The notes beneath the pieces were generated by a model, which was not told the origin of the DNA, did no database searches, and saw only the letters and a program-made list of their open reading frames with translations. A program made the translations under genes and the position numbers. Below, piece after piece: positions 5,730 to 36,220 of a stretch of 64,000 bases of DNA. Origin of the DNA: an uncultured Gammaproteobacteria bacterium. Lineage in GTDB: Bacteria > Pseudomonadota > Gammaproteobacteria > Pseudomonadales > Pseudohongiellaceae. The DNA is taken from the NCBI GenBank assembly GCA_913048385.1, contig CAJWVZ010000010.1, positions 1 through 64,000 of the forward strand, written 5' to 3'. Each line of letters starts with the position of its first letter. The first letter of the stretch is position 1.

Positions 5730-6161
5730 ATGAGAAAACTTACATTAGCGATAACATTAGCCTGCTTCGGATTTATCGCTCCGCTGCTTACTTTTGGTTT
5801 TGAGGTCGTCGGGGATAGAGTGAATCTGACGGGTAAAATAACATCTACGACCTTGACCGATGAGGGCGGGATTATCAACGTCGTCTCTGACAACGAAATA
5901 TATGGAAAGACTTGGTTAACCTATAATATTGATTTAGATAATCCGAATTCTGTCAATCAAGGTTCTTTTCAAGGCAGAGCTACCGCTATTAACAATGATG
6001 GCTCGAGGGTAAGCTCGACCCGTCAAGGCGTCTGGAGTAGAGATGGCTATATCTATTCTTTTTATTCGCTGGACGACGTAAGTGATGGAAATCAGTACAT
6101 TTGCATCACAACAATGAACGTCAAAGATGATTCAGTTGAAATGAGATTTTATCCAAAGTGA
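5730..6161 (+). CDS. Secreted protein of unknown function
   Basis: 143 residues with a signal peptide (MRKLTLAITLACFGFIAPLLTFG). The mature part is beta-rich (VVGDRVNLTGKITSTTL, GSFQGRATAINNDGS, GVWSRDGYIYSFYSLDDVSDG), ending CITTMNVKDDSVEMRFYPK; this looks like a small beta-barrel. Strong AAAAAGGAGTTTAAA ribosome site before ATG 5730. The stop codon overlaps the GTG start of the thioesterase at 6158 by 4 nt, so the two are translationally coupled. Confidence 0.7.
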   Translation: MRKLTLAITLACFGFIAPLLTFGFEVVGDRVNLTGKITSTTLTDEGGIINVVSDNEIYGKTWLTYNIDLDNPNSVNQGSFQGRATAINNDGSRVSSTRQGVWSRDGYIYSFYSLDDVSDGNQYICITTMNVKDDSVEMRFYPK

Positions 6162-10495: not shown

Positions 10496-10645
10496 ATGCC
10501 ATCTGAAGATATTACCTACGACAACCGATTCGCTGAAAGTTTCTACTATGATGAATCGGAAAAAGAGGCTTTGCGTATGAGTCGTACGGATAAAGTTGCT
10601 AAATTTCCGTCAGCTAATGCTCGTTATTCCCGCCCTGAGAGTTAA
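10496..10645 (+). CDS. Small acidic hypothetical protein
   Basis: 49 residues starting at ATG 10496 with AGGGAGAAAG upstream; the longer in-frame start at 10385 lies inside the previous gene and has no ribosome site. Sequence MPSEDITYDNRFAESFYYDE then KEALRMSRTDKVAKFP: hydrophilic, probably disordered, no domain. Too short for a function call. Confidence 0.45.
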   Translation: MPSEDITYDNRFAESFYYDESEKEALRMSRTDKVAKFPSANARYSRPES

Positions 10646-10698
10646 GCAAGCACAAAGGTAGCGGGAAAGAACCCGTAGATGTCACGACAATTTTGCTG

Positions 10699-11820
10699 TC
10701 ATGCCCATGGGTCTCTCATGGCCTCAAAAAATGCATGGTGACCATCAACTATTTGGCGCGTCTTCTCTGGATCAGGTGTTGTATCCCAATTATTTCTTTC
10801 GAAAGTTCCGCCGAGAAGTATCCCATCACTCCGCGGGAACATATAAAGCCCGCCATTTCCGATGATTATGTAATCGACCTCATTCTGAGGTAACAGAAAG
10901 GTAAGCTGTCCTTTTATAGGGATTAGATCACTGTCATTAAATAACATCCGCGACCCTAGCCCCGTACAATTGATGATTACTGGCTCCTCAAGCTGCAGAA
11001 CTTCATTAGTATCTTGAAATTCTTTGACAAGTATTTCCCCACCAGCAATTTGAAAATCATTCATCATAGCTGGCAAATAAATGGCCGGTTCAATCAACAT
11101 AGTATCCATATGCAACACATGCGTAGCATCGAATGGATGTTGTGACGGGTTTAATTGACTGCGCTCTGGATACATGTCGCTATATGTTGAATAAAGACTG
11201 CCGGGTTCATCTGGATTATCAGCTATCATATAGTTACTTATCCAGCGCACGCCGTATTTCGAACCAACTAGATTTTGAAAATAGCGATAGGAATGGCGCA
11301 TCGCACTTTCAAATTGGGCAAGAAATACCGGTGAAACTGCATCATTGTCATAGACTGAAGTCGGTGACCATTGCCCGCCTGCAACATTAGATGTAGTGTT
11401 TGGCGGTAAATCTTTAGCATAAATACTTACCTCCCAGCCGGCATTTTGCATTAGTCTAGCTGCAGAGAGTCCTGCGGCTCCGCAGCCCAAGATTGCGCAA
11501 CGCTTATGTTGAGTTTGGATAGCAAGTTCCATGGCTAAATGAGAAGTGCCCCACGATAATGTAATACCGCCACCACCGTGACCATAATTATGGATTACCA
11601 CTTTTTCATTCATTTGTTCAGCGCTAACAACGAAACCTTTGGAACGAAAGGGACGTAATCCCGCGATAGAGCGAATAATCCTATCTTCGGAGACATTAAC
11701 GCGACGTAATGGTGAGCCTGAAGGCGTATAATTCCTAGAATCTTTTTGATTTGTGGTCACGCAATTCGTAAGCAAAGGGAACGCAGCCATTGACTGCAGA
11801 ATTTGTCGTCTGTTTATCAC
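10699..11820 (-). CDS. FAD-dependent D-amino-acid-oxidase-like protein, permuted motif order
   Basis: 373 residues. N-terminus MINRRQILQSMAAFPLLTNC looks like a twin-arginine/lipoprotein leader (Arg4-Arg5, Cys20). Residues 77-85, HNYGHGGGG followed by ITLSWG, match the block that is near the C-terminus of D-amino-acid oxidase. The FAD Rossmann motif (AILGCGAAGLSAARLM, residues 109-124) and the VAGGQWSP segment, N-terminal in ordinary DAO, come after it. So the motif order is circularly permuted. The remaining domain includes INCTGLGSR and PIKGQLTFLLP. Likely oxidises an amine or amino acid outside the cytoplasm; substrate unknown. Isolated gene. Confidence 0.8.
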   Translation of the reverse strand: MINRRQILQSMAAFPLLTNCVTTNQKDSRNYTPSGSPLRRVNVSEDRIIRSIAGLRPFRSKGFVVSAEQMNEKVVIHNYGHGGGGITLSWGTSHLAMELAIQTQHKRCAILGCGAAGLSAARLMQNAGWEVSIYAKDLPPNTTSNVAGGQWSPTSVYDNDAVSPVFLAQFESAMRHSYRYFQNLVGSKYGVRWISNYMIADNPDEPGSLYSTYSDMYPERSQLNPSQHPFDATHVLHMDTMLIEPAIYLPAMMNDFQIAGGEILVKEFQDTNEVLQLEEPVIINCTGLGSRMLFNDSDLIPIKGQLTFLLPQNEVDYIIIGNGGLYMFPRSDGILLGGTFERNNWDTTPDPEKTRQIVDGHHAFFEAMRDPWA

Positions 11821-11936
11821 GATTTCCCCCTCATTTTATTTAGGCTACTTCAATTTATTGGATACAGCTCGCGGTGTCTCCTCAAAATTAATCCTGTAAG
11901 CTATCTTGAATTACATAATATTTCATTGGTTTAATT

Positions 11937-11977
11937 ATTTATAGTAGGCTATCCCACTTACTAAAGGTAAATTTGAA
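11937..11977 (+). repeat. Upstream element copy, before serine hydrolase
   Basis: TTATAGTAGGCTATCCCACT followed by TACTAAAGGTAAATTTGAA, running directly into ATG 11978 and supplying its ribosome site (AAAGG). Aligns with copies at 13361, 19031, 21208 and 22507. Confidence 0.7.
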
Positions 11978-13369
11978 ATGATCAAAATACTAACAACAAC
12001 CGCATTCCTGATTTCACTTTTCGTATGTACATTCTCAAACGCAGCCAACGATTTGTACTTTCCAATGGAAGACACTGATTGGGAAGTCATTAGCCCGAGC
12101 GAGGCAGGCTGGGATCCGGCGCTGCTAGCAGAGGCCGTGAAACTCGCCGGAGACAGAAAGAGCAGCGGTCTCTTAATATTACAGAATGGAAAGATTATAG
12201 CCGAGCAATACTGGGAAAGACCGGATGCCTCTTTAAGATACCGAAACAGTCTCCAAAAATTTGACTTACAAAACCGCCCTATTGAGGACGTAGCATCTGT
12301 ACAAAAAAGTATCACAGCGATTCTAGTCGGCATTGCTCAGACCCGAGGATTTCTGACATTGGAAGATTCCGTTAGTTCATATGTCGGTTCGGGATGGTCC
12401 AACGCTTCTCTAACCCAAGAGTCAGCAATTACAATACGTCACCTACTTACAATGACAAGTGGTCTTACAAGTGATCTTTTTTTTGAAGATAAACCTGGCG
12501 AAAAATGGTTTTACAATACGCCCGCGTACCACCTCCTTATGCCAGTAGTTAGCGCAGCTACAGGAAAAACGAGAGATGAAATAACTCACGAGTGGTTAAC
12601 AAAACCTCTAGGCATGACAAATTCTTTTTGGGTGTTAAGAAATTCGGACTCTTCTGAGAATGTATTTGGCTTTGCTACCACAAACCGAGATTTAGCTCGT
12701 GTTGGTTTGATGATTCAAGGTGGCGGTCAATGGAAAGACGAAGTAATTTTTGAAGATCCAAATTTTCTGCAAGAAATGTTAAGCCCGTCACAAAACCTAA
12801 ACCCATCATACGGTTATCTCTGGTGGCTAAATGGGCAAACTTTTTCACTTGGGTTTTCATCTGATGCTGTACGAAGTAGCGGCCCTATAATTTCTGAAGC
12901 GCCCCCCGATCTGATAGCTATGCAAGGAGCTCAAGACCGGAAACTATACTTAGTTCCCAGCCTTAATCTTTTAATCACACGCCTCGGCGAAACCGGCAGT
13001 GCCGATGGTGTAACTTTTAATACCGCTTTTTGGAAAGCTCTTCTCAAAGCAAAGCCGAAAATAAAAAATACAAATGCTTCCTTTGACTCAGGTAGCGGAG
13101 TACTGACTATCCCCGCTGTGAATGTTGATAAACAATCTTTCTATGTAGAGATGACACTCAACAATTCTAAAACTTTAGATTTCGTTTTGAGCGCATCATT
13201 CATTCAGCAAAAAAATCCTGACCCACGCGCGGCAACATTTTCTCTCAGAAACAGAATGCTCTCTATTCCAATTGTTGATACAGTTTCCAATGCTTACAGA
13301 GTGAATCTTCTACTAATAAAAGATACCCCACCAACTTTCCGCGTTATAGCAACGTACGTATTAGGCTAG
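11978..13369 (+). CDS. Secreted serine hydrolase (beta-lactamase/transpeptidase-like)
   Basis: 463 residues with a signal peptide (MIKILTTTAFLISLFVCTF, cleavage near NAAND). Class C/EstB-type fold: SxxK as SVQK at 107-110 (preceded by DVA), YNT at 179-181 as the Tyr-Asn equivalent, and helices around IRHLLTMTSGL. Residues beyond about 350 form an extra beta-rich C-terminal domain of about 110 residues (SFDSGSGVLTIPAVNVDKQ). Family members are esterases, D-aminopeptidases or D-Ala carboxypeptidase-like enzymes; a true beta-lactamase role is unlikely but not excluded. Flanked on both sides by copies of the recurring element (11937 and 13361), which makes it a cassette-like unit. Confidence 0.85.
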   Translation: MIKILTTTAFLISLFVCTFSNAANDLYFPMEDTDWEVISPSEAGWDPALLAEAVKLAGDRKSSGLLILQNGKIIAEQYWERPDASLRYRNSLQKFDLQNRPIEDVASVQKSITAILVGIAQTRGFLTLEDSVSSYVGSGWSNASLTQESAITIRHLLTMTSGLTSDLFFEDKPGEKWFYNTPAYHLLMPVVSAATGKTRDEITHEWLTKPLGMTNSFWVLRNSDSSENVFGFATTNRDLARVGLMIQGGGQWKDEVIFEDPNFLQEMLSPSQNLNPSYGYLWWLNGQTFSLGFSSDAVRSSGPIISEAPPDLIAMQGAQDRKLYLVPSLNLLITRLGETGSADGVTFNTAFWKALLKAKPKIKNTNASFDSGSGVLTIPAVNVDKQSFYVEMTLNNSKTLDFVLSASFIQQKNPDPRAATFSLRNRMLSIPIVDTVSNAYRVNLLLIKDTPPTFRVIATYVLG

Positions 13370-13403
13370 CTCATTTACTAAGGGTAAATTTCAAAAAAGA
13401 GCG
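13361..13403 (+). repeat. Upstream element copy at the end of the serine hydrolase
   Basis: TTAGGCTAGCTCATTTACTA then AGGGTAAATTTCAAAAAAGAG. The TAG stop of the serine hydrolase (13367-13369) lies inside the element, so the repeat begins within the last codons of that gene. Direct repeat of 11937-11977. Confidence 0.65.
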
Positions 13404-13462
13404 TTAGACTAGCGCTGGCATCAAGAAGCTGAACTCGCGTATTTATTTAGGCATCACGCACT

Positions 13463-14365
13463 ATGGAACTTTGGATTGCATTCACCATCAGCGCCGCTTT
13501 TTTTCAAACATTAAGGTTTATACTGCAGAAATTACTCAGCACCTCAACTCTGACGTCGGCAGGAGCGACTTTTGCTCGGTTTTTTTATTCTGCTCCCTTA
13601 GTCGTCTTTTTTTTGAGTCTCTATTTCACGCTGACTGAAACCTCTTTCCCCGCAACCTCATTATGGTATTGGGCCTTTGCCTTATCGGGAGGTCTCGCAC
13701 AAATTTTGGCGACAGTCTGCGTTATTTTGCTATTTAAAACACGAAATTTCGCAGTTGGCACAACGTTTAAAAAAACTGAGGTGATCCAAACGGCATTGAT
13801 AGGCTTTTTGATTTTAGGCGATTCTATAGGTCAGGCAGGGTTGACTGTTATTTTGATTGGTTTGATTGGCGTTTTATTACTGTCAGAGATGCCTGAAATA
13901 CGAGGCGACTGGTTTAGAAGAATTAATAATTACCCTTCTAAGCTTGGTGTTTTATCAGGATTTCTATTTGGCATATCGGCTGTTTGTTATCGCGGCGCGT
14001 CGCTTGAGATAGACAGCACCGATCCTTTACTGCGCGCTGGGGTTACCTTGGCCTGCGTTACCTCTGCGCAATTAATCGGAATGGCATCTTGGCTTCGCTG
14101 GTTTCAGCCGGGACAAATCAGTGCGGTCTGGGCCGCTCGACGAGGCGCAGCTTGGATTGGACTGACTTCGATGGCGGGTTCGTTTTGCTGGTTTACCGCT
14201 TACACACTCCAAAACGCTGCCTATGTAAATGCGCTTGGCCAAATTGAACTGATATTTAGCCTAATCGCATCGGTATTTTTCTTTAAAGAACGGATCACCA
14301 AAAAAGAATTGGCCGGACTCAGCTTTTTGGCAATCAGTATTTTCGGAATTGTTTTTCTGATTTAA
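13463..14365 (+). CDS. DMT-superfamily (EamA) transporter
   Basis: 300 residues with ten predicted membrane helices arranged as two EamA halves (about residues 1-140 and 160-300). Motif-like features: GGLAQILATVCVILLFKTRNF and a C-terminal half with YVNALGQIELIFSLIASVFFFKERI, the usual end of a drug/metabolite transporter with the PxxxxxGxxxLxE-type helix. Probably an inner-membrane exporter of a metabolite or amino acid; substrate unknown. The stop is followed by an inverted repeat (AACCTGAT 14375-14382, ATCAGGTT 14418-14425). Confidence 0.85.
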   Translation: MELWIAFTISAAFFQTLRFILQKLLSTSTLTSAGATFARFFYSAPLVVFFLSLYFTLTETSFPATSLWYWAFALSGGLAQILATVCVILLFKTRNFAVGTTFKKTEVIQTALIGFLILGDSIGQAGLTVILIGLIGVLLLSEMPEIRGDWFRRINNYPSKLGVLSGFLFGISAVCYRGASLEIDSTDPLLRAGVTLACVTSAQLIGMASWLRWFQPGQISAVWAARRGAAWIGLTSMAGSFCWFTAYTLQNAAYVNALGQIELIFSLIASVFFFKERITKKELAGLSFLAISIFGIVFLI

Positions 14366-14374
14366 AATTTGGTT

Positions 14375-14457
14375 AACCTGATAGACAATTCATACGAATA
14401 TGTCGATTGCGTTTTCCATCAGGTTGGGAGAGTCTGGCCATACGGTTTTTAGTTACT
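14375..14457 (+). repeat. Inverted repeat plus partial upstream element copy
   Basis: Outer arms AACCTGAT (14375-14382) and ATCAGGTT (14418-14425), inner CATA-CGAA-TATG (14391-14402). Immediately after comes GGGAGAGTCTGGCCATACGG then TTTTTAGTTACT (14426-14457), which aligns with the first half of the upstream element in the copies at 19031 and 22507 (GGGAGAGGTCTGGCGCTACGG). The second half is missing. Leads to the gene at 14472. Confidence 0.5.
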
Positions 14458-14471
14458 GTCAAAAAAATTGA

Positions 14472-15761
14472 ATGCTAAAATGTTCTAAGCTTATTTCTCA
14501 GCTTAAACCCGAGGACAATCAGTTGCCATATTATAAAAGCGACGAACTAATCAAGTATGAAAGCCTCACCCAACTATATGACAGATCGCTAACTGTTCAT
14601 GGAATTAAAATTGTTGCAGGCGCAGAAGTCAGTGGTAACAAGGCCGTGCCCGACGACTGGGTATATAAAACGGCCAGGGTAATACAGCTGCTGTTAAACC
14701 CAAAGGGACAAGAAATAGACAGCGTTGCACAAGAAAATGCCATTAAGATACTGAAGGGGGAAAGTGGTACTTTCCATGCAGGTTCACCTACTGTTCAAAG
14801 AACGCTTTACGGCAGTGGGGACAGCTATGAATTTAACCCATTGCGCTCACCAGAGAAATGGAAAGGCTTGGATGAACACAACGATATCCATGTTAGTAAC
14901 GATATGGTCTGGTACAGAAATGTCGAATCCCCGAATCCTCCCACAGGTAGAAATGATATCGCTGAAATCATGGAGCATGTACTTCATACAATCCATATGC
15001 TCGGGATTAAAGGAGCCGTCGAGGGGTCGTTACAAGCTCTAAATGGATCGGATCAATCCAGTGAAGTATACAAGGCGATGAGTGAAGCGGTTAAGAATGA
15101 TGCTTTTGATTTGGAGGGATACGGCGGAAGCTTGGATAGGGACCTTGGTTTTACGGGTGAGGTAATTTTAAAAGAATATCTCTACTTGTTAACGTTTGGA
15201 ATGTGGGAATACAACGAATTTTGGGATAAAGGGTCGTTAGCACCTGAATGGTCAGATTCGGCTAGAACACCTACAGGAGTTCTAGATTTGAACCCTCTAG
15301 GCTATGCACTTTTTACGAAGTATCTGGCTCCAGTTATTTCTCGACCGAGCACAGACATTTTGCTTGACGTGTTCCAAAATAATGATCAAGGAGCTCATGG
15401 CTATCTTTCAGATACAGTCGAACGAAACGTCATTTCGCTGATAATAGAAGAGGGCATTGTTGCAGAGTCGGCGCTGACAGTTTCTGACTTAAATGAAGAA
15501 ATAGTGCGTAACGGTCAGGATGTATTAAGTCATACGATAGAATATGGAAGCCAAGTTTATGCATATCAGGATATTGATCAGTTTATTATGGTTTACCTGA
15601 GAAATGACGAGTTTTCTTCAGAGTACCAAAAAGAAATAGCTGATAGCTTTCCCGACTACAGTACCGTTAGCTATTCTGAAGTAGTTTCACTTGTTGGGGT
15701 AACCGGACTGAGTGATGCGATATTACAAATCGCTAGTGCTGACGGGACCTTTGTCGTCTAA
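14472..15761 (+). CDS. Unknown protein, possible type I-secreted zincin-like protein
   Basis: 429 residues, no signal peptide and no membrane segment. A helix at residues 163-175 reads EIMEHVLHTIHML, giving an ExxxHTxH pattern that resembles, but does not match, a metzincin HExxH site. The protein is acidic, and its last residues (ILQIASADGTFVV) have the hydrophobic C-terminal ending seen in many type I secretion substrates. The domain resembles a region found attached to some RTX-type proteins of marine bacteria, but I cannot name the family. Second C-terminal part (about 330-429) is helical. Function not assigned; no ABC exporter nearby. Confidence 0.6.
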   Translation: MLKCSKLISQLKPEDNQLPYYKSDELIKYESLTQLYDRSLTVHGIKIVAGAEVSGNKAVPDDWVYKTARVIQLLLNPKGQEIDSVAQENAIKILKGESGTFHAGSPTVQRTLYGSGDSYEFNPLRSPEKWKGLDEHNDIHVSNDMVWYRNVESPNPPTGRNDIAEIMEHVLHTIHMLGIKGAVEGSLQALNGSDQSSEVYKAMSEAVKNDAFDLEGYGGSLDRDLGFTGEVILKEYLYLLTFGMWEYNEFWDKGSLAPEWSDSARTPTGVLDLNPLGYALFTKYLAPVISRPSTDILLDVFQNNDQGAHGYLSDTVERNVISLIIEEGIVAESALTVSDLNEEIVRNGQDVLSHTIEYGSQVYAYQDIDQFIMVYLRNDEFSSEYQKEIADSFPDYSTVSYSEVVSLVGVTGLSDAILQIASADGTFVV

Positions 15762-15805
15762 CATCGCAGAATCATTCACCCTAAAAATGGTTTTAGAGCT
15801 TTATT

Positions 15806-15828
15806 TGGTGCCGAAGGCCGAACTTGAA
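15806..15828. repeat. tRNA-Leu 3'-end fragment (att-like)
   Basis: TGGTGCCGAAGGCCGAACTT plus GAA: 22 of 23 bases equal the 3' end of the tRNA-Leu gene at 24241-24263, in the same orientation (complement of a tRNA 3' end with CCA). The sequence diverges at once on the right, so it is not a full tRNA. Such a fragment is what integration into a tRNA 3' end leaves behind. Confidence 0.65.
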
Positions 15829-15901
15829 TGGGAATTCATATCATATACTTACAGTACTTTGAGTATTTCACCTACCATTAACCAATCCCAGATGAAGTTT
15901 T

Positions 15902-16054
15902 CTACAAATTTTTACCACAGCATTTTTTAAATTTACGGCCATTACCACAGATACATGGATCGTTGCGTCCAACCTTTGGAGCGTTGCGTGTGATAGGCGT
16001 TTTTGAAGGACAACAGCTTGTGTCGGTGCATTTAGGTTTTTCGTTCATATTCAT
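15902..16054 (-). CDS. SEC-C zinc-motif miniprotein
   Basis: 50 residues, missed by long-ORF rules. The C-terminal half reads [20 protein letters not shown], a complete SEC-C metal-binding motif (Cys-x-Cys...Cys-Cys) as at the C-terminus of SecA and in many small proteins. The N-terminal half has a CTDTSCC cluster. Two in-frame ATGs (16054, 16048); the first is used here. Probably binds zinc; role unknown. It lies just inside the att-like fragment at 15806. Confidence 0.75.
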
Positions 16055-16139
16055 TCCAAGTTATCCCATTGGTGGGGTAGCAAGTATACCCGAGGGGCAT
16101 CCCATCTTTAAGCAAATAAGTAAGCGCGATGCTTAAAAC

Positions 16140-16607
16140 TTAACCTCCGTTGTTATTCGTAGCCTTTATCTGGCGTATAGAAAGATAGAACATCACGGGC
16201 ACTACCAGCACCAGTATTGGTTGTACAAGTGCGGCAGGCGCCACTGATACTGTCTCTATACTTTTGAAAAATGCCAAGATAATTCGCGAACCCCATTCGA
16301 AAAATATAAAGATATACATCAGTGGAATCAGACGCCGATAACGCAATGCCACAATAAGATACATCACACCAATCATCAGTTGAGCAATCCCCCATTGCGC
16401 AAATAGAAAGATCACACCCTCTGCGCCGCCTTGAGTAAAAGCATCCAATGGGATCGTCGCAATAGACTGAGCACCGCCATCTCCCGCAAATATATGAACA
16501 CAACTTCGGCAGATTGTGAGCAACGTTATAAAGTAGAAGAAAACCAAAGAAAGCCTGTGTCCTTCAAAGGCATTGTCCACTTGGCCCGGTAAGATTTTTT
16601 CTAACAT
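16140..16607 (-). CDS. Small integral membrane protein, unknown function
   Basis: 155 residues from ATG 16607, which follows AAAAGAGATAAACTT; the in-frame extension to 16700 lacks a ribosome site. Four predicted helices: LSLVFFYFITLLTICRSCVH, GVIFLFAQWGIAQLMIGVMY, LIPLMYIFIFFEWGSRIILAF and ALVQPILVLVVPVMFYLSI. The pattern resembles the uncharacterised small four-helix membrane proteins common in marine gammaproteobacteria; no enzyme motif is visible. Confidence 0.65.
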   Translation of the reverse strand: MLEKILPGQVDNAFEGHRLSLVFFYFITLLTICRSCVHIFAGDGGAQSIATIPLDAFTQGGAEGVIFLFAQWGIAQLMIGVMYLIVALRYRRLIPLMYIFIFFEWGSRIILAFFKSIETVSVAPAALVQPILVLVVPVMFYLSIRQIKATNNNGG

Positions 16608-16948
16608 AAGTTTATCTCTTTTCGTTATTTTATGATTTATGCTCTCAAGGAGACTAGTATTCCCCTCGTTGAAAGAAAGTGCAATCAAACACGCAACCAA
16701 CTACCCCACCCCCTTTTTTCTAGTATTCCTCTACCCCGCACCCCACCCCTGGGGGTACACCCCGATAAGACAGAATGGTTCCATTGTGCCCGTATACATA
16801 CTATTCTGGACGAAGAATCAGCCTTTTTATAAGGGCATCATGTTAACGTCGCTTTTTGGAAGCTGAGATATTACGATTTATACTCGCGATATTTTGCAGA
16901 ACGATGCTGCCAACATGTTTACATCAACTTATTGGGGCGTATAGTTAA
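16608..16948. other. Intergenic region, C-rich tract
   Basis: 341 bp between divergent genes at 16607 and 16949. It contains an unusual C-rich stretch (about 16701-16762) with CACCCCTGGGGGTACACCCC; the strand asymmetry (C on plus) is unlike the neighbours. No ORF with a convincing ribosome site; the two short overlapping frames at 16632-16866 are not supported. Confidence 0.4.
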
Positions 16949-17872
16949 ATGATAAAGATCTTTATCACTCTCCTTCTAGCAATTGTCGTATCTTTTCCTA
17001 CCTCTTATTTTTATTTTAAATATTCTTTTCTCAATAATTTAAAAGCTAATTCTGAGATAGTGGAGACTAGTTTAGGCTCTGTTGAATACACCCTGAAGGG
17101 GAATACTGGTCCAGTTTTACTCTTTATTCATGGGACGCCTGGCGGGTACGATCAGACGGCTGAGGCGACTGACAAGTTCAGAGTATTGACTCCATCAAGA
17201 CCTGGATACCTACGAACATCTATTCTTCTTGGGAAAACTCCTCTTGAGCAAGCCAAGGTTTTTAAGGCACTACTTGATGCATTGGGTATCGATAAAGTAA
17301 CAGTAATGGGGGTTTCTGGTGGCGGCCCTTCATCTTTGGAATTTGCTGCAAAATTTCCAGAAAGAACACATGGGTTGATTGCTTTTGAGGCGGTAAGCTA
17401 CGCAGAAGATTTTACTGAAACCGATGCAGAAATCATTAGCGCTTCTGATTTTAGTCTTTGGATTCAACTTGCTTCTATGTCTTTTCTGAGCAATAAAAAT
17501 CTTGCTTCTGCGATCCTTCCTAACCCAAATAACAGGGAAAAGCTTCTTAATGAACCAAAAAATGTAGAAGAGCTAAAAAAATTAGTTTGGTCAATTTGGC
17601 CACTAAGTGCAAGACAAGAAGGGATTAAAAATGATTATGAGCAATTTTCAAATTTCTCCGCTCCGCTAAATGAAATTACAGTCCCGACATTGGCTATTCA
17701 TGGAAATGAAGACATTAATGTAGACATAAGTCATGCAACAACGCTAATTGAAAATATTCAGGGTGCTGAGTTATACACAGTAAAGGGAGGAGACCATTAC
17801 ATGAGTTCAACTCATTCCGAAGAAATAAATCCTTTGATTGAAAAATTCATTCTTGAATATAGCCTTCAGTAG
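16949..17872 (+). CDS. Membrane-anchored alpha/beta hydrolase
   Basis: 307 residues. One N-terminal membrane segment (about residues 4-24), then an alpha/beta hydrolase domain: oxyanion motif HGTPGG at 61-66, nucleophile elbow GVSGGG at 121-126 (Ser123), an Asp in HGNEDINVDISH and the catalytic His in GGDHYMS near the C-terminus. Complete catalytic set, length normal. Probably faces the periplasm as an esterase or similar; substrate unknown. Its AT content is higher than in the flanking core genes. Confidence 0.85.
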   Translation: MIKIFITLLLAIVVSFPTSYFYFKYSFLNNLKANSEIVETSLGSVEYTLKGNTGPVLLFIHGTPGGYDQTAEATDKFRVLTPSRPGYLRTSILLGKTPLEQAKVFKALLDALGIDKVTVMGVSGGGPSSLEFAAKFPERTHGLIAFEAVSYAEDFTETDAEIISASDFSLWIQLASMSFLSNKNLASAILPNPNNREKLLNEPKNVEELKKLVWSIWPLSARQEGIKNDYEQFSNFSAPLNEITVPTLAIHGNEDINVDISHATTLIENIQGAELYTVKGGDHYMSSTHSEEINPLIEKFILEYSLQ

Positions 17873-17957
17873 CTTGAACTTTTGGAAATCACGAGAAACT
17901 CTGATTATTCACCCTTTTTTTACAGCAATAAAGAATTTAGATATAGAGGATTTACAA

Positions 17958-18113
17958 ATGAGATTTGCGTTCGCGACCATCTTAATTAGTTTTTCAGCAG
18001 CGTTGTCTGCTCAAACAGGTGCGCTAAATACTCCACAGGGGAACTTAATTGGTGAGCTCTCAGATAAGGCAAGTGCTGTGCGTGTATTTCGTGGCATAAA
18101 AGGTGAATTTTAA
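17958..18113 (+). pseudogene. Truncated N-terminus of a type B carboxylesterase
   Basis: 51 codons with a good ribosome site (AGAGGATTTACAA). Signal peptide MRFAFATILISFSAALSAQT followed by TPQGNLIGELSDKASAVRVFRGI, which is the start of a carboxylesterase type B domain (usual continuation PYAxPPVGxLRW). Instead the frame passes into KGEF and stops, and the break coincides with a copy of the recurring element (ATAAAAGGTGAATTTTAAAA). The remaining 450 or so residues of the enzyme are absent from the window. Interpreted as a recombination remnant; the small secreted peptide could still be made. Confidence 0.7.
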
Positions 18114-18120
18114 AAAAGGT
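18097..18120 (+). repeat. Short upstream element copy fused to the esterase remnant
   Basis: ATAAAAGGTGAATTTTAAAA then AAGG aligns with CTAAAGGTGAATTTGAAAAA of the copy at 19101. It contains the stop codon of the esterase remnant and leads to the leader ORF at 18128. Confidence 0.5.
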
Positions 18121-18127
18121 ATTGGGC

Positions 18128-18217
18128 ATGATCAAACCGTTAACTGCAATAACTCTTCTATGCCTGTCTATTGTAATTCCCGCCGCCTCCAACAGAAGTG
18201 CTATCATATTTTCATGA
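18128..18217 (+). CDS. Short leader ORF (signal-peptide-like), coupled to the next gene
   Basis: 29 residues, MIKPLTAITLLCLSIVIPAA then SNRSAIIFS. Hydrophobic, like a signal peptide with no mature protein. Its stop TGA (18215-18217) overlaps the ATG of the membrane protein at 18214 (ATGA). Homologous to the leader at 21774 in both sequence and arrangement, although the genes behind them are unrelated. Either a decayed gene start or a functional coupling leader. Confidence 0.5.
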   Translation: MIKPLTAITLLCLSIVIPAASNRSAIIFS

Positions 18218-18699
18218 TAGAACAACAAATCCTTATAACAATAGCAACGCTTGCTGTAACTCTAGCTGGGTTTTCAGGTGTAGTGGGTATTTTTACTAAA
18301 GAACTGCCTGATGATAAAACCCATAAACTAGAAACTTTATTATTTCAAAGTGGTGCAGCGTTATTTGCCTCTCTTACTACTCTAATTACTTCTCAGATAG
18401 ATGGAGCTTTAAAGAGTGAAGAAGAGTTTAGAGAGTTTTGGATGATCTCTAGTTGGGTTTACATAATCATTACAATAATAGTTTTGACTTTTGCTACTAT
18501 CGATATAATCAAAACTAAGAGTTACAAGGAAATTAATTACGATATTCTATTTTATTTTTCTTTCTTTGTTGTTATTGCGCTGCTAATTTTTAATGCACTA
18601 TATATTCAAGATGCTTATTTATTTCATATAGCGCTGGAGATAAACCTAGCTTTTGCATTCGTGTCTTTTTACACGCTAGTAATACCTCCAAAAGGATAA
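18214..18699 (+). CDS. Small membrane protein, four predicted helices
   Basis: 161 residues from ATG 18214, inside the ATGA overlap with the leader ORF; starting at 18103 would extend it through the leader in another frame and is not supported. Predicted helices: ILITIATLAVTLAGFSGVVG, LFQSGAALFASLTTLIT, VYIIITIIVLTFATIDII and a C-terminal pair (ILFYFSFFVVIALLIFNALY, IALEINLAFAFVSFYTLVI). The first helix with AVTLAGFSGVVGIF resembles a family of small uncharacterised bacterial membrane proteins. No function known. Confidence 0.65.
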   Translation: MIEQQILITIATLAVTLAGFSGVVGIFTKELPDDKTHKLETLLFQSGAALFASLTTLITSQIDGALKSEEEFREFWMISSWVYIIITIIVLTFATIDIIKTKSYKEINYDILFYFSFFVVIALLIFNALYIQDAYLFHIALEINLAFAFVSFYTLVIPPKG

Positions 18700-19030
18700 A
18701 TTAATAATAAAGAGAGGAGTTACTGCAGGTTGTGGATAATTACAAACACTGTAACTCAATGTCCTACTCCCCCCCTTGCTCTATTTGATGTTACCAAGAG
18801 TGTTACTAAAATCTAAAGCCATTGCACTCAAGATCCCTCCTCCCAAAACTATTTGAACCCGAGTCTGTATTTCGAAAAGGCGTGGCTGGCAAGGTATACA
18901 GCATGGGCTTCTTAAACTTGGAGAGAACATCTCTTAACAGAAGTCCAAAATACCTCGCCAACCACCAAAACGTCCCGACTTCTTAAACGTAAGCTTTAGC
19001 AAAACCCTTCGCATGAAGTTGAAGGGTGAG
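18700..19030 (+). other. Intergenic region with long stem-loop
   Basis: No gene seen. Main structure is a stem-loop with arms GTGGCTGGCAAGGTAT (18882-18897) and ATACCTCGCCAACCAC (18950-18965), 14 of 16 paired, loop of 52 nt. The loop holds a nested imperfect pairing GGGCTTCT/AGAAGTCC. A second hairpin follows, AACCCTTC/GAAGGGT at about 19003-19027. Framing bases are shared with the element at 4767-4833. The region ends in the upstream element at 19031. Confidence 0.6.
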
Positions 19031-19117
19031 TGATTTTTAGGGATGGGGAGGGTCTGGCTTTGCGGTTAATATTTATAGTACGCTAACCCACTTACTAAAG
19101 GTGAATTTGAAAAAGAG
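19031..19117 (+). repeat. Upstream element, full-length copy
   Basis: From TGATTTTTAGGGATGGGGAG through GGTCTGGC, GCGGTTAATATTTATAGTAC, GCTAACCCACTTACTAAAGG and TGAATTTGAAAAAGAGG, up to the ATG at 19127. By eye about 87 percent identical to the copy at 22507 over about 92 bp, although the genes that follow are unrelated. Contains TATAGT as a possible -10; no good -35 is evident. Confidence 0.75.
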
Positions 19118-19126
19118 GACAGCGTA

Positions 19127-21109
19127 ATGAAATATTTTTCGGTAGGTAATCTTGAATATTTAGTTTCCAATGTGGCCTCATTGTTACCAGAGAATTATCG
19201 CGAAATAAAACCACAGTGGGGGCTTGCGACAAGTGAAATATTCTTGTTGGAGAATTATGATAATCCTGTTGTTTTGGTAGCTCCAGAAAACGATCAGGAT
19301 TCGGAGGACTGGCCTCTAGGTATATTTGAATTGGACGGTGATGTCGAGAAGATAGATTGGATTGGCTTTAACAACTGGAGCTCGTACAGCGGTACTTTCT
19401 TATTTGATGCAAACGATGATGGGCTCAGTGATCTATTCGTGCCGGGCCAAAGTGGGCATAATCCGACCGGCTCTCAAGGAGAGATACCTTTCCTTGCGTT
19501 GAATAGTAAATCTGGGTTCGAAGATATTTCAGGCGATGTTTTTACTGAACCGTCATATACCCATGGTTGGACTTTTGGGGATTTTGATGGCAATGGGTTT
19601 ACTGACATCGTCTTAAACAGTCTAAAGTACGATGAATTGCCCTTATCGACTATAATGATGAGTCAGGGCGACGGTACGTTCGTTAGCCGACGCGATTTAT
19701 TACCTGCTGAAATTGCGGGTGATAAAGCCATGCCTCCTTCGGGCCCTCAGCTACCAAATTACATGTCACTCGCGATTCGCAGTGGTGACATGGATAATGA
19801 TGGTGATTTAGATCTGATTGTTCCAGAATATAAAACTAATGGTTGGGAGGAAGATAAAGGTTTTTTCCTGAAAAAACTTAATCCCCAGATTTGGATTAAT
19901 GACGGGTCTGGAAAATTTTCATTTTCTGAAAAAATACTGCCCTTATACGATCAAACAGCATCCACGTATTTCGCGAACGATCTCGAGGTTGTTGATATTA
20001 ATAAAGATGGAAAACTTGAAGTTATATACGCCGTTGATACCGGAGACATAGGTGTAAACGAAAACTACTTGTCTGACCATCTTGTGATTCTGCAAGAAAC
20101 TGATGCTGAAGGGTATCAAAATGTTGCAAAAAAATTGGTCGGTAATGATAAGTTAAAAGTCGATGGATATTGGCCAATTGATATTAGTTATAATGATCTA
20201 AATGTCGATGGATATGAAGATATAGTGGTCTCACTCTCTCCTTGGGGTGGGGTCGATGCAAAAGACCCGGCAGTTGTAATTTATTACAACAATGGTAACG
20301 GGTATTACTCTCCTGAGCTCGTTTCCGTTTCTACACAATGGGCTGTCAATTTTAAACTTTTTGATGATGATGGTGATGGTGTTCGCGACGCCTACATGTT
20401 CAATCGTGGGAACACTGTAGACGGTGAAGGCTCTTATGTTCGCTATTCCGGTCAGTTAATTAATCAAGTTAAGGATAGATCAGGCACTGATGGGGACGAT
20501 ATCTTAGTTGGTTTTGGTGATGGCGGTGTACTAAGTCCCGGGCTCGGTAATGATCTTCTGGTTGGTGGCAATGGAGTAGACGTTGCGTCTTTTGCTATTG
20601 CATCAAATCAGGTTTCTTTGCTTAAGTCTTCGTCAGGTGTAAGCGATCACGATTGGAAAATAAAGACTGAAGTAGAAAACAACACCTTAATTTCGGTAGA
20701 AAGAATTTCATTTAAAGATAAAAAAATAGCTCTAGATCTCGAAGGAAGTGCCGGCATCACGGCAAAAGTCTTGGGCGCTTTCCTGGGTGAAGCAGGCGTG
20801 TCTCAACCAGATTTAGTAGGCATTGGTCTTGGTCTTGTAGACAATGGGCTCACATATGAAGGGTTTCTAGAACAAGCAATCGTTGCTATTTTTGGACCTG
20901 ACCCAAGCGGTGCCGATATGGTGAAGCATTTTTATCAGTCTCTCACCGGTCAAGCAGCGCCTGAAGCTTTAGTTAATCAGTATGCCGGTTTAATTGATGG
21001 TGGCAGTCTGGCTCCGGTTGATCTTGCGATGCAAGTCGCTGAGAGCGAATTGAACATACAAAACGTCGGTTTAATTGGGTTGACTCAAACTGGATTGGAT
21101 TATATTTAA
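19127..21109 (+). CDS. FG-GAP/VCBS-repeat protein with RTX and DUF4214-like C-terminus
   Basis: 660 residues, acidic, no N-terminal signal peptide. Residues about 95-440 carry FG-GAP/VCBS repeats with calcium-loop patterns (DANDDGLSDLFV, DFDGNGFTDIVL, DMDNDGDLDLIV, DINKDGKLEVIY, NVDGYEDIVV, DDDGDGVRDAYM). Around residue 453 begins an RTX-like segment (GTDGDDILVGFGDG, GLGNDLLVGGNGVD). The last 110 residues (SLTGQAAPEALVNQYAGLID) resemble DUF4214-type modules. Features indicate a calcium-stabilised beta-propeller exported by a type I system to the surface or medium. Partner or substrate unknown; no exporter genes nearby. ATG 19127 follows AAAAAGAGGACAGCGTA. Confidence 0.8.
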   Translation: MKYFSVGNLEYLVSNVASLLPENYREIKPQWGLATSEIFLLENYDNPVVLVAPENDQDSEDWPLGIFELDGDVEKIDWIGFNNWSSYSGTFLFDANDDGLSDLFVPGQSGHNPTGSQGEIPFLALNSKSGFEDISGDVFTEPSYTHGWTFGDFDGNGFTDIVLNSLKYDELPLSTIMMSQGDGTFVSRRDLLPAEIAGDKAMPPSGPQLPNYMSLAIRSGDMDNDGDLDLIVPEYKTNGWEEDKGFFLKKLNPQIWINDGSGKFSFSEKILPLYDQTASTYFANDLEVVDINKDGKLEVIYAVDTGDIGVNENYLSDHLVILQETDAEGYQNVAKKLVGNDKLKVDGYWPIDISYNDLNVDGYEDIVVSLSPWGGVDAKDPAVVIYYNNGNGYYSPELVSVSTQWAVNFKLFDDDGDGVRDAYMFNRGNTVDGEGSYVRYSGQLINQVKDRSGTDGDDILVGFGDGGVLSPGLGNDLLVGGNGVDVASFAIASNQVSLLKSSSGVSDHDWKIKTEVENNTLISVERISFKDKKIALDLEGSAGITAKVLGAFLGEAGVSQPDLVGIGLGLVDNGLTYEGFLEQAIVAIFGPDPSGADMVKHFYQSLTGQAAPEALVNQYAGLIDGGSLAPVDLAMQVAESELNIQNVGLIGLTQTGLDYI

Positions 21110-21207
21110 GTTAATAAAAATATCTGGTCACGGTTATCATCTGCATATGTAAAATATGACTGTAAAGAAAAAAAGATTAAAGAATAAAGCGAATTAATAT
21201 AAGAAGA

Positions 21208-21246
21208 GGGCTAGGCCACTCACTAAAGGTAAATTCGAAAAAAATA
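21208..21246 (+). repeat. Upstream element copy
   Basis: GGGCTAGGCCACTCACTAAA then GGTAAATTCGAAAAAAAT, aligning with the distal half of the element (GGCTAACCCACTTACTAAAGG). Lies 24 bp before the small membrane gene pair at 21270. Confidence 0.65.
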
Positions 21247-21269
21247 AAAAAGATTTTGGATTTAAAAAA

Positions 21270-21395
21270 ATGAAAAAGCGTATTTTTAGCCGTATGATTC
21301 AGTGTTGCCTAGATCATCCAAGATCGTTCTGGCCGATCATTGTTATTGGTGGTTTCGGAGACACGGTTTTTTATTACTGGTTCTCAGGAGAATGA
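21270..21395 (+). CDS. 41-residue membrane-type peptide
   Basis: MKKRIFSRMIQCCLDHPRSF followed by WPIIVIGGFGDTVFYYWFSGE: a basic amphipathic start and one short hydrophobic segment. Stop TGA overlaps the ATG of the next gene (21392) as ATGA, so the two are coupled. No family recognised. Confidence 0.5.
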   Translation: MKKRIFSRMIQCCLDHPRSFWPIIVIGGFGDTVFYYWFSGE

Positions 21396-21700
21396 TTTCT
21401 TCTTTAAGAGTGTTTGCTTACATTTGCATTTGGACAACGCCTCTCCAGATTGCATTAGTTTTGTGGGGCATCGGCATTATTGCCGTTACCGATCATAGTA
21501 TTATTTCACTATCAAATATCGAGTTTATTAGGAACTACCTTGGCTTTCTCCTCCCTATTATTGAGTGGGCATACGCTTGGTTTTGGATTGCTTTCTTAGA
21601 TTGGGTGTTTTCTCTACCGATGATTTTACACCAGACCGTTAAGGCAATTGTTTCTACGTGGCTTGGCTATTGGATACTGAAGAGGACAAAGAAACGATAA
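21392..21700 (+). CDS. Small integral membrane protein
   Basis: 102 residues starting at ATG 21392 in an ATGA overlap with the 41-residue ORF; an upstream in-frame extension to 21302 has no ribosome site. Predicted helices at about residues 8-34 (ICIWTTPLQIALVLWGIGIIAV), 45-73 (YLGFLLPIIEWAYAWFWIAF) and a third re-entrant or helical segment to the basic end KRTKKR. No motif. Small hydrophobic pair with a basic tail could suggest a holin-like or toxin-like role, but nothing in the sequence proves it. Confidence 0.55.
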   Translation: MISSLRVFAYICIWTTPLQIALVLWGIGIIAVTDHSIISLSNIEFIRNYLGFLLPIIEWAYAWFWIAFLDWVFSLPMILHQTVKAIVSTWLGYWILKRTKKR

Positions 21701-21773
21701 AAGGGCTACCTAGTCTGCTCGAATGATGACTATTCCTGATGTTTTTTGAGACCAGATTGGGTATCTTTTAGAC

Positions 21774-21842
21774 ATGAACAAACTGTTAATAACAATAACT
21801 CTTCTCTGCTTTTCTGTTGCTACTGATAAGGATTTATTATGA
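21774..21842 (+). CDS. Short leader ORF, second copy
   Basis: 22 residues: MNKLLITITLLCFSVATDKD then LL. Shares the core TAITLLCLS/TITLLCFS with the leader at 18128, and the DNA of the two aligns over about 45 bp (block AATAACTCTTCT identical). Stop TGA overlaps ATG 21839 of the next gene as ATGA, exactly as at 18214. Confidence 0.5.
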   Translation: MNKLLITITLLCFSVATDKDLL

Positions 21843-22324
21843 AAAAGATAATACTTGTCGCCATTTCTTTTTGGAGTTTATCTTATTCATCGCAAGCTTC
21901 GGAAAATTCAATAGAAGGTTTTTGGTTTGCTTCAGGCTCAATTGTTGAAATTAAGGTCTGCCAACAATTTATCTGCGCTGAAGTAGTGCACGTAATTACT
22001 GAGGAGGGAACGGATCCACTAACTGTCTTAGATGAAAATAATGACGAAAGAAAGCTTAGAAATAGAGCTCTGATCGGTATAAATTTATTTGATGGATTTG
22101 AAAAAGAACTTTTATCAGATGAAACCATAAAAGGCGGCAGAATATACGACCCCAGAAGAGGCAAGTTTTATAGTGCAGAGTTGGCTATGTTAGAAAATGG
22201 CAACTTACTTGTCGAAGGCTGCTTGCTCTTTATATGTGATGGGGAAGAATGGTTTCCGCTTGTAGTAACAATAAATCCAGATGGCTCGAGGCAGGCTACC
22301 CCTAAGGGTGCCCAAGGTATATAA
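21839..22324 (+). CDS. Secreted DUF2147-like protein
   Basis: 161 residues. Signal peptide MKKIILVAISFWSLSYSSQA, then SIEGFWFASGSIVEIKVCQQFICAEVV, KLRNRALIGINLFDGFEK and KGGRIYDPRRGKFYSAELAMLENGNLLVEGCLLFICDGEEWF (positions about residues 24-150). This is the calycin-like pattern of the DUF2147 family (G.W......I.I......GRI.D...GK.Y.....L...L.V.GC). The family is periplasmic and not biochemically defined. Start lies in the ATGA overlap with the leader ORF. Confidence 0.75.
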   Translation: MKKIILVAISFWSLSYSSQASENSIEGFWFASGSIVEIKVCQQFICAEVVHVITEEGTDPLTVLDENNDERKLRNRALIGINLFDGFEKELLSDETIKGGRIYDPRRGKFYSAELAMLENGNLLVEGCLLFICDGEEWFPLVVTINPDGSRQATPKGAQGI

Positions 22325-22362
22325 CGGCTATTACAGTGTCTAGATAACTTTAGGATTACACG

Positions 22363-22393
22363 TACTAAGAAAACATGGTGCCGAAGGCCGGCA
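22363..22393. repeat. tRNA-Leu 3'-end duplication (att-like)
   Basis: TACTAAGAAAAC-A-TGGTGCCGAAGGCCGG (22363-22391) repeats 24228-24256 with one mismatch in 29 bases. It covers the tRNA-Leu 3' end plus 13 bp of flanking sequence, and weaker similarity continues some 10 bp further left (TTTAGGATTACA against TTAAGGTTACA). The unit between the two copies contains one upstream element and the TPR-SGNH gene. Confidence 0.75.
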
Positions 22394-22506
22394 TATTAAT
22401 CTCTAAACCGCCTAAAAAAACGTATGCTTTACTTGCAGTTACAACTGGCGTTCCCGAAATTCCCGTAACGATTCCTGTAACCAACTTTATATACCAAGGG
22501 TGGCCC

Positions 22507-22594
22507 TGATTTTTAGGGGTGGGAGAGGTCTGGCGCTACGGTTAATAGTTATAGTAGGCTAACGCAATTACTAAAGCTAAATTTGAAAAAAGAG
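22507..22594 (+). repeat. Upstream element, full-length copy
   Basis: TGATTTTTAGGGGTGGGAGA, GGTCTGGCGCTACGGTTAAT, AGTTATAGTAGGCTAACGCA, ATTACTAAAGCTAAATTTGA, AAAAAGAG, leading to ATG 22600. Near-identical partner of the copy at 19031. Confidence 0.75.
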
Positions 22595-22599
22595 TCGTA

Positions 22600-24204
22600 A
22601 TGAAGGCAACTATTGATGCTAAAGAGCCGTCTCAAGAACAACTTAGTTTGTTATTGCAACAATACCAAAATGGAAGGTATCCCGAAACTGAGAAGTTAGC
22701 TTTAACAATCACTCAAGAATTTCCTAAGCACCAATTTGCATGGACAATGCTCGGCATTGTACTTAAACAAACCGGTAGAATAAGTGAGTCATTAGTTCCC
22801 AGCCAAGAAGCAGTCGCATTATGTCCTCAAGATGCCGAAGCTCACTACAACTTAGGTCTCACGTTCGCAGAGTTAAGAAGACTACACGAAGCTGAGGCAA
22901 GCTATACGCAAGCAATAGCGTTGAAGTTTGACTTTGCTTATGCCCACAGTAACTTGGGTGTCACATTACAAGAACTAGGCAGATTAGACGAAGCTGAAGC
23001 AAGCTATACACAAGCGATAGCTTTAAAACCTGACTTTGCTGAAGCCCACTACAACTTAGGTACCACTTTTCAAGCACTAGGCAGACCAAAAGAGGCTGAA
23101 GAGCACTTCACGCAAGCAATAGCATTAAAGCCTGATTATGCCGAAGCCCATAATAACTGCGGCGTCACACTCCAAGAGCTGGGCAGATTAGACGAGGCTC
23201 TAGCAAGCTATAAGCAAGCGATAGCATTGAAGCCTGACTTTGCCGAAGCGATGCTCAATATTTCATTTACTCAAAGTTATATGAATAATTTAGAAGCAGA
23301 AATTGTTTCGTTGAAAAATGTATTGCGAATAGATTCTGATGATTATGGTTTGAAGGCTGGTGTGAATTTGGCTATCTGCAACTTTTTAGAAGGGGATTTT
23401 ACAGAAAGTAAAAAACTTCTTTTGGCGGCTACTAAAATACAAGAAAAAACATCCTCAATATCTAAAAATGAAAGAGTATATTCGATATATCTGTCAAACA
23501 TTTTAAAATGGCATGAAAATAAATATATTGCTAATAAGAAAGGAAAAAATGACACGACTCTATACGTCCTTGGCGAGAGTCATTCCCTAACCAGCCATCA
23601 TTTACGTATTCAATATTCAGAAATTGATTTCTTCTGCAGTGCAAGATTAATAAAAGGCTGCAAGCAATGGCATTTAGGAAATGCTTTTAGAAATCAATAT
23701 AAACATCAATTTGAGAGTATTTTTTTCGCTCTTCCAAAACATAGCTATATTTTAGTAGCAATCGGAGAGATAGATTGTAGATTAGAATCTGGAATTATCG
23801 CACATAAAAGGAAATTTCCAGAAAAGCAGATAAGAGAAATAATCTCGAACACGATAGAAAATTATCTCAACTACATTGTAAATAATAATTCTGATTGTCA
23901 GCACAACGTTACTATTCAAGGAGTGCCATGTCCAAATCTTGATTTTAGAAATCACTCGGAAAAGGATATTAGGCAGTTAGTCGAGGTAATTAAAATATTT
24001 AATTATGAATTAAAAATGCAATCTAAAGAAACCGGGTTTGGATTTTTAGACATACATCAACTAACCAATAAGGGGGATGGAATGTCTAATGGTTTTTGGC
24101 ATATTGATGATTATCATCTTTCTCCCGGAGGTATGCAGGAAGCCTGGCGGCGATGTGGTTCCGAAAAGTCATATGAACAGTTTAAAAAAAAAGAAGTTAG
24201 TTAA
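22600..24204 (+). CDS. TPR-SGNH hydrolase-like fusion protein
   Basis: 534 residues, no signal peptide. Residues about 10-225 are five to six 34-residue tetratricopeptide repeats with near-identical units (AEAHYNLGTTFQALGRPKEA, EEHFTQAIALKPDYAEAHNN). A linker follows. From about residue 317 there is an SGNH/GDSL-like domain: GESHS near 324 (block I Ser), GEID near 388 in a block III position, and DDYHLSP near 504 with the Asp-x-x-His pair of block V. Such domains act as acyl- or carbohydrate esterases. TPR arms commonly hold protein partners or, in O-GlcNAc-transferase-like proteins, peptide substrates. The strong identity between TPR units at DNA level suggests recent duplication. Sits between two tRNA-Leu-like repeats. 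Confidence 0.8.
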   Translation: MKATIDAKEPSQEQLSLLLQQYQNGRYPETEKLALTITQEFPKHQFAWTMLGIVLKQTGRISESLVPSQEAVALCPQDAEAHYNLGLTFAELRRLHEAEASYTQAIALKFDFAYAHSNLGVTLQELGRLDEAEASYTQAIALKPDFAEAHYNLGTTFQALGRPKEAEEHFTQAIALKPDYAEAHNNCGVTLQELGRLDEALASYKQAIALKPDFAEAMLNISFTQSYMNNLEAEIVSLKNVLRIDSDDYGLKAGVNLAICNFLEGDFTESKKLLLAATKIQEKTSSISKNERVYSIYLSNILKWHENKYIANKKGKNDTTLYVLGESHSLTSHHLRIQYSEIDFFCSARLIKGCKQWHLGNAFRNQYKHQFESIFFALPKHSYILVAIGEIDCRLESGIIAHKRKFPEKQIREIISNTIENYLNYIVNNNSDCQHNVTIQGVPCPNLDFRNHSEKDIRQLVEVIKIFNYELKMQSKETGFGFLDIHQLTNKGDGMSNGFWHIDDYHLSPGGMQEAWRRCGSEKSYEQFKKKEVS

Positions 24205-24240
24205 TGCAAAGAATTAAGGTTACATAATACTAAGAAAACG

Positions 24241-24326
24241 TGGTGCCGAAGGCCGGACTTGAACCGGCACGAGCATAGCTCACTACCCCCTCAAGATAGC
24301 GTGTCTACCAATTCCACCACTTCGGC
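24241..24326 (-). tRNA. leuU: tRNA-Leu (GAG)
   Basis: 86 nt with encoded CCA (24241-24243). Acceptor stem GCCGAAG (24320-24326, complement) pairs with CTTCGGC; D-arm GTGGAATTGGTAGACAC, anticodon loop with TTGAG (anticodon GAG), long variable arm (GTGAGCTATGCTC) as expected of a class II tRNA, and T-arm GTTCAAGTC. Located directly behind secG, as leuU is in E. coli. Its 3' end is the source of the repeats at 15806 and 22363. Confidence 0.95.
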
Positions 24327-24350
24327 ATAAATCTTCATTTCTATTTCTTA

Positions 24351-24731
24351 CTAATTGGACGGAAGACTTGGGAGATCTTCCTGAGTATTTTCAGTTGTAG
24401 GCGATGTCTCGAGTCGCGGAACGTCAGCTTCAATCTCCGACATATTTTCAAGCAGTTCAGGATTAACAACGGGAAGGCCAGCGGTAGAACCAAATCCCGT
24501 CTGGTTTTTAGCAACCAAAGACAGAGAAAGACTGGTCACAAAGAAAATGACTGCCGCAACCGTCGTTGCTCTGACAAGGAAATTGCCGCTACCCGACGCT
24601 CCGAAAACTGTCTGCGAAGCACCTGCGCCAAACGACGCACCAGCATCCGCACCCTTGCCCTGTTGCAAGAGAACCAGGCCAACGATGATGACCGCTACAA
24701 CTAAATGCACTACAACAATAATGGTTTCCAT
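24351..24731 (-). CDS. secG: Preprotein translocase subunit SecG
   Basis: 126 residues. Two membrane helices (residues about 2-20 and 53-72) around the conserved GADAGASFGAGASQTVFGASGSGNFL loop region (residues 26-51), typical of SecG. It supports SecYE-mediated export in the inner membrane. The Pro/Glu-rich tail of about 40 residues is longer than in short homologues. Separated by 3 nt from tpiA on the same strand. Confidence 0.95.
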   Translation of the reverse strand: METIIVVVHLVVAVIIVGLVLLQQGKGADAGASFGAGASQTVFGASGSGNFLVRATTVAAVIFFVTSLSLSLVAKNQTGFGSTAGLPVVNPELLENMSEIEADVPRLETSPTTENTQEDLPSLPSN

Positions 24732-36183: not shown

Positions 36184-36220
36184 AAAAAGCGGAGGGAAGA
36201 ATCTCTTCACTCCGCTTTTT
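36184..36220 (-). terminator. Rho-independent terminator behind dapB
   Basis: Arms AAAAAGCGGAG (36184-36194) and CTCCGCTTTTT (36210-36220) with inner GAAGA/TCTTC pairing; on the minus strand it is followed by a run of seven T. Ends dapB transcription before carA; symmetric enough to work in both directions. Confidence 0.85.

Follow-up and report, generated by a model that had tools for sequence, protein, structure and literature searches.

Genomic islands anchored at tRNA genes are marked by a direct repeat of the tRNA 3' end and by an integrase gene, and integron cassettes by attC sites, which are imperfect palindromes with RYYYAAC and GTTRRRY ends. Cassette arrays of the CALIN type are by definition without an integrase. 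Here, we compare with these systems a locus in a 64,000-nt stretch (hereafter the window) of contig CAJWVZ010000010.1, which derives from an uncultured gammaproteobacterium of the family Pseudohongiellaceae. On the 3' side of a tRNA-Leu gene, the window contains the 5' stub of an esterase gene that ends at a copy of a repeated, leader-like element.

An esterase gene stub at a repeated element

Read directly from the sequence, the frame runs from an ATG at 17958 to a stop codon at 18111-18113 and encodes 51 residues (MRFAFATILISFSAALSAQTGALNTPQGNLIGELSDKASAVRVFRGI-KGEF-stop), of which residues 1-47, up to FRGI, are esterase-like. The mechanical ORF list gives an upstream TTG start for the same frame, resulting in 91 aa. 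The features around the stub are as follows:

16949..17872, + strand: gene C, an alpha/beta hydrolase immediately 5' of the stub (Pfam; block in common with the close relative G028, 93%)
17958..18098, + strand: 5' stub (codons 1-47, from the signal peptide to FRGI) of a type-B carboxylesterase gene; homologue matches end at residue 47
18096..18099, + strand: junction, uncertain by ~3 nt; last esterase codon ATA at 18096-18098, element AAAGGT from 18099
18099..18127, + strand: right end of the leader-like element (model 52-71) and gene-specific spacer before gene X (element model, G028 homology)
18128..18217, + strand: 29-codon small ORF MIKPLTAITLLCLS..., whose stop overlaps the gene X start (ATGA, 18214-18217); same arrangement in G028
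18214..18699, + strand: gene X, a small membrane-like protein of 161 aa (Pfam: sub-threshold hit only)

With the 51-aa query, matches at E ≤ 0.001 were found in 6 of 137 genomes of the family, namely its own, G002, G118, G119, G121 (twice) and G123. All six matches in the five other genomes stop at query residue 47, inside frames of 510-538 aa, and local tblastn placed the match end at residue 47 or 48. The closest homologue, in G002, is 53% identical to the stub and 510 aa long, and was assigned to PF00135 by Pfam at 396 bits; the 51-aa ORF alone gave no Pfam hit, does not continue into the domain and is thus a stub of that family. Searching the longest frame of the six esterase loci for FRGIP returned FRGIPFAAPP in G002 and FRGIPYAAPP in G118; the motif was absent at the other four of the six loci, in part because their longest frame is a different one or because the esterase deviates at these residues. 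A PF00135 search of the own genome (2.52 Mb, 98.9% complete, 37 contigs, single assembly) gave no match, while the control search was positive in 10 of 14 genomes.

Since the matches end at residue 47 within long frames and the own genome holds no PF00135 match, the ORF was identified as a 5' stub, and the remainder of the esterase gene is gone; its presence elsewhere in the own genome is ruled out by the same zero count. A 51-residue peptide conserved as such is also ruled out, because across the 137 genomes the other matches sit in full-length esterase frames. The preliminary description had read the frame as a type-B carboxylesterase start that proceeds to FRGI, then enters the element and stops, and both the direct reading and the matches ending at residue 47 bear this out. 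The stub at the repeated leader-like element is hence confirmed. By itself it is an ordinary gene remnant or scar; the element family, which is moderately interesting, is the more interesting part.

Residue 47 is encoded by the last esterase codon, and AAAGGTGAATTT begins at 18099. The DNA from this position reads AAAGGTGAATTTTAAAAAAGGTATTGGGCATG, and its first 20 nt represent the right end of the repeated element. The 20-mer ATAAAAGGTGAATTTTAAAA occurs in the window once exactly and once with three mismatches (19094), compared to an expectation of 0.02. Against the 71-nt element model (R1), the junction site aligns to positions 52-71 only (12.2 bits, E 0.029 in 227 kb), a match that is weak alone and too weak to count among the 16 model matches of the own genome. 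Homology continues past the junction into the start of the next gene, where window 18106-18159 corresponds to 5843-5896 of G028 locus L033 (78%, E 2e-5). In L033, a longer part of the element (model 36-69) stands before this start, and in the window the esterase occupies that place. Because homology runs through the gene start and L033 retains the preceding part, we regard the junction site as a right-end copy and not as a full one. For positions 17912-18126, no DNA hit was listed in G028, G150, G146 or G154 (in G154, among the 40 of 64 candidates that were scored); both sides of this stretch do give DNA hits in G028.

In G028, the relative of gene X (L132) is cut short after ~73 residues, and the end of contig C95 and the start of contig C37 have 99 identical nt in common. 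The small ORF at 18128-18217 resembles one at 21774-21842 (M.K.L..ITLLC.S type); in both, the stop codon and the start codon of the following gene overlap in an ATGA, and a related start exists in G028. Between gene X and the FG-GAP gene, a long imperfect hairpin was found at 18882-18965 (z -3.2; 0 of 200 shuffles as stable).

Distribution and features of the leader-like element

The ungapped consensus of 12 copies is GGGAGGGTCTGGCTCTGCGGTTAATAGTTATAGTAGGCTAACCCACTTACTAAAGGTAAATTTGAAAAAAG, featuring a -10-like TTATAGT and an AAAGG before the start. A sequence-only model of the element yielded 16 matches in the own genome and six in G028. At E ≤ 0.1, some match was present in 33 of the 137 family genomes, many of them weak; matches above 45 bits were confined to four genomes (own, G028, G154 and G150). 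Several other species carry a second version, which retains TTATAGT and ACTAAAG. The exact element pattern was found in genome contigs at two loci, a marine MAG (evidently G028) and a Faecalibacillus record; we take the latter to be a chance match. Spread by phage was rejected: neither the element pattern nor the junction occurred in viral contigs (0 in each scan), and the MQRIK protein was without a relative. Besides the junction copy, the window contains the following copies:

11916..11981, + strand: element copy before the beta-lactamase-family gene (60.5 bits)
13360..13399, + strand: partial element (model 32-71), containing the stop codon of the beta-lactamase-family gene; edge of a block shared with G028
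19047..19114, + strand: element copy before the FG-GAP gene (75.8 bits)
21209..21243, + strand: partial copy (model 36-70; 23 bits)
22524..22592, + strand: element copy before the TPR gene (68.4 bits)
24186..24222, + strand: right end of another putative leader and first codons (ATG 24204) of the MQRIK gene

At 25 of 39 examined copies, a reading frame of 80 aa or more starts between -10 and +60 nt of the element end, compared to 827 of 3000 random positions, which were taken from the same loci and include gene interiors; the 39 copies are 43 model matches minus four weak or cut ones, some of them orthologous pairs. No such frame follows the remaining 14 copies. Because 25 of 39 copies precede a frame near the element end, the element fits a predicted promoter and 5' leader that heads many of the genes in this region. 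This role gains no support from a simple sigma-70 scan of positions 10500-24400, which left the TTATAGT of the element unlisted and returned 25 sites, the shuffle mean being 32.6. The RNA structure of the element consensus comprised seven pairs, none of them changed on both sides.

Partial copies in the own genome, G028 and G154 have their left edges at model positions 32, 36, 36, 41, 44 and 52, these edges being local alignment ends that can reflect divergence. For the stretch at 24186, comparison with G028 places the edge at ~65; positions 24186-24222 match 18072-18108 of G028 locus L032 at 97%, and the last codons of the TPR gene run into the leader-like sequence (frame judged by eye). At 18099, homology shows that the left flank is the interior of another gene, and at 13360 as well as at its G028 counterpart the stop codon of the upstream gene lies inside the element. 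Copies consisting of the left half only also occur (model 4-41, 6-41 and 18-51). Truncated MQRIK starts at window 24204 and on own contig C3 (the latter by eye) count as further scars, as do the shortened gene X of G028 and a lone piece of gene C on own contig C26. Element copies were also observed near the 3' side of a tRNA-Arg gene (own contig C3; L031 18543-18777) and of a tRNA-Met gene (G028 contig C95; L032 17731-18078).

Block order beside the tRNA-Leu gene

The stub region lies on the 3' side of the following gene:

24241..24326, - strand: tRNA-Leu (gag)

The genes to its right are presumably core genes (secG, tpiA, glmM, folP and ftsH, named from their translations). As in genomic islands, the 3' end of the tRNA recurs as a direct repeat of 29 bp (22363-22391 and 24228-24256), and a shorter version with one mismatch in 16 is located at 15806-15821. 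Of the 21 frames between 497 and 24204 that were run against Pfam, a selection that does not include 3355-4047, for example, none is a recombinase, so that no integrase gene of the kind expected in a tRNA-anchored island was detected in this set. The own genome has one PF00589 match, on contig C7. The 29-bp repeats, consisting of the tRNA-Leu 3' end and neighbouring bases, flank a 1865-bp unit (element and TPR gene) that looks as after integration at the tRNA and has no integrase gene inside.

Five blocks of the window have counterparts on G028 contig C90, namely A (10604-13397), B (14427-15820), C (16922-17911), D (21710-22330) and E (22376-22551). On that contig they follow one another as D, C, A, B, E. 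The end of A coincides with a model-detected element in both species (window 13360-13399, L033 5821-5854). The start of B (14427) resembles the left part of the element by eye, the model being silent there at E up to 10, and the end of B and the start of E lie at the tRNA-end repeat. Block C starts at a second repeat in G028 and ~80 nt from that repeat in the window, block D starts at it in G028 only, and the start of gene X, likewise a block edge, lies just right of the leader-like element. No repeat was recognised at the start of A or at the ends of C and D, among ten block edges examined. Block junctions at repeats are thus frequent, not universal.

The second repeat (window 16690-16840; L129 and L130, CACCCCACCCTAGGGGCACACCCCGATAAGTCAGAATGGTTCC...GTATACATACTATT) varies in sequence after CTATT. 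Separately, a 77-nt piece of the gene C 3' end (L030 3136-3212, 97%) stands alone on own contig C26, and a self-complementary stretch of 37 nt (86%) is located at 36184-36220.

Origin of the junction and relation to known systems

We consider it probable that a deletion or illegitimate recombination joined the 5' end of the esterase gene to the leader of gene X, leaving a fusion scar beside tRNA-Leu. Two neighbouring gene units, the esterase and X with its own promoter and leader, would have been present, and one such event would have removed the DNA between them. The break would have fallen inside the element, so that the ribosome-binding part of the X leader was retained, by selection or by chance. 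A single event, its direction and selection for keeping this part are what we infer from the resulting arrangement, and the 51-aa ORF would accordingly be a dead remnant if the deletion or recombination reading holds. No relative with the pre-event arrangement was found, and therefore the event itself is not seen.

The preliminary description saw in a breakpoint at the element support for a recombination junction. This holds in so far as the join is no more than ~3 nt away from the element match and a G028 block boundary, the end of A, falls at another element copy; the idea of the element as a defined recombination site found no support, given its varying left edges, the lack of a recombinase in the tested window frames and its leader-like character. 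That the element is a site of site-specific or short-homology exchange, with the junction as its product, is in our view unlikely. Such a site would match the A-end boundary, which carries a model-detected copy in both species, the B-start boundary, which shows a resemblance to the left part of the element by eye only and no model report at E up to 10, and the three reading frames (beta-lactamase family, esterase and TPR gene) that enter right halves of the element. A fixed crossover is disfavoured by the left edges of the partial copies, which range from model position 32 to ~65. In addition, left-half-only copies occur, the 21 window frames tested with Pfam contain no recombinase, and on its esterase side the junction showed nothing that resembled the element (judged by eye, with only the stub as own esterase DNA). 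Moreover, a deletion sparing the X leader at its right end would give the same picture. Retro-copying of a transcript was considered, as the left edges are concentrated within the leader, but it was abandoned since some of them are located 5' of the putative transcription start. Very improbable is a misjoin in the assembly: the element is repeated, 4 of its 16 own-genome matches are no more than 1100 nt away from a contig end and the sequence comes from a single assembly, but the element stretch at the junction is just ~20 nt long and located inside a 99.7-kb contig, and further stubs of the same kind occur.

Quite unlikely, too, is a leftover of a cassette array of the integron type that has no integrase, in which the left part of the element would be an attC-like end and the right part a cassette start. 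The integron integrase TIGR02249 exceeds the cut-off in 27 of the 137 family genomes (control: 13 of 14 positive, none over the cut-off), and the second repeat has 16 occurrences within 40 kb of G154 contig C11, with GTTAG following in 11 of 32 collected sites. The own genome is without a TIGR02249 match, which counts against a complete integron only, as a CALIN lacks the integrase by definition. Only 6 of the 32 sites, the one in the window not being among them, are followed by the full R' motif GTTRRRY, which makes the integron reading slightly less likely. Pairing between the left part of the element and upstream DNA was equalled or beaten by more than 5% of 200 shuffles at 11 of 12 sites, the exception being the B-start site, which is not a model-detected element. 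RNAalifold returned an empty structure for the 32 second-repeat sites, possibly due to a set-up fault, and two attC scans gave nothing convincing here but almost nothing beside known integrases either, and so lacked a working positive control. Finally, none of the 15 integrase-flanking loci searched and none of the G154 array loci contained an element match.

Beyond the deletion or illegitimate recombination that we favour for the junction itself, one may tentatively speculate, with considerable doubt, that in one marine gammaproteobacterial genus promoter-and-leader modules tag exchangeable gene starts, stay with their gene and mark, or perhaps promote, swap breakpoints in arrays that have lost an integrase or never had one. 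With its well-defined breakpoint in a repeated-leader family, the locus is a suitable site for examining whether gene exchange in marine bacterial genomes is steered by a common promoter and leader.

Compared to known systems, the locus resembles gene remnants of tRNA-anchored islands in having genes 3' of a tRNA, a repeated tRNA 3' end, truncated genes and a different order in a relative; it differs in that no integrase was found in the tested window frames and in the repeated leader-like element that precedes many genes. With CALIN it shares units that mostly consist of one gene, repeats separating some of these units, a shuffled order and integrases in relatives, whereas attC hallmarks were not demonstrated and the units apparently have promoter-like leaders of their own. 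Tycheposons, as tRNA-linked cargo in marine plankton genomes, are alike by resemblance only.
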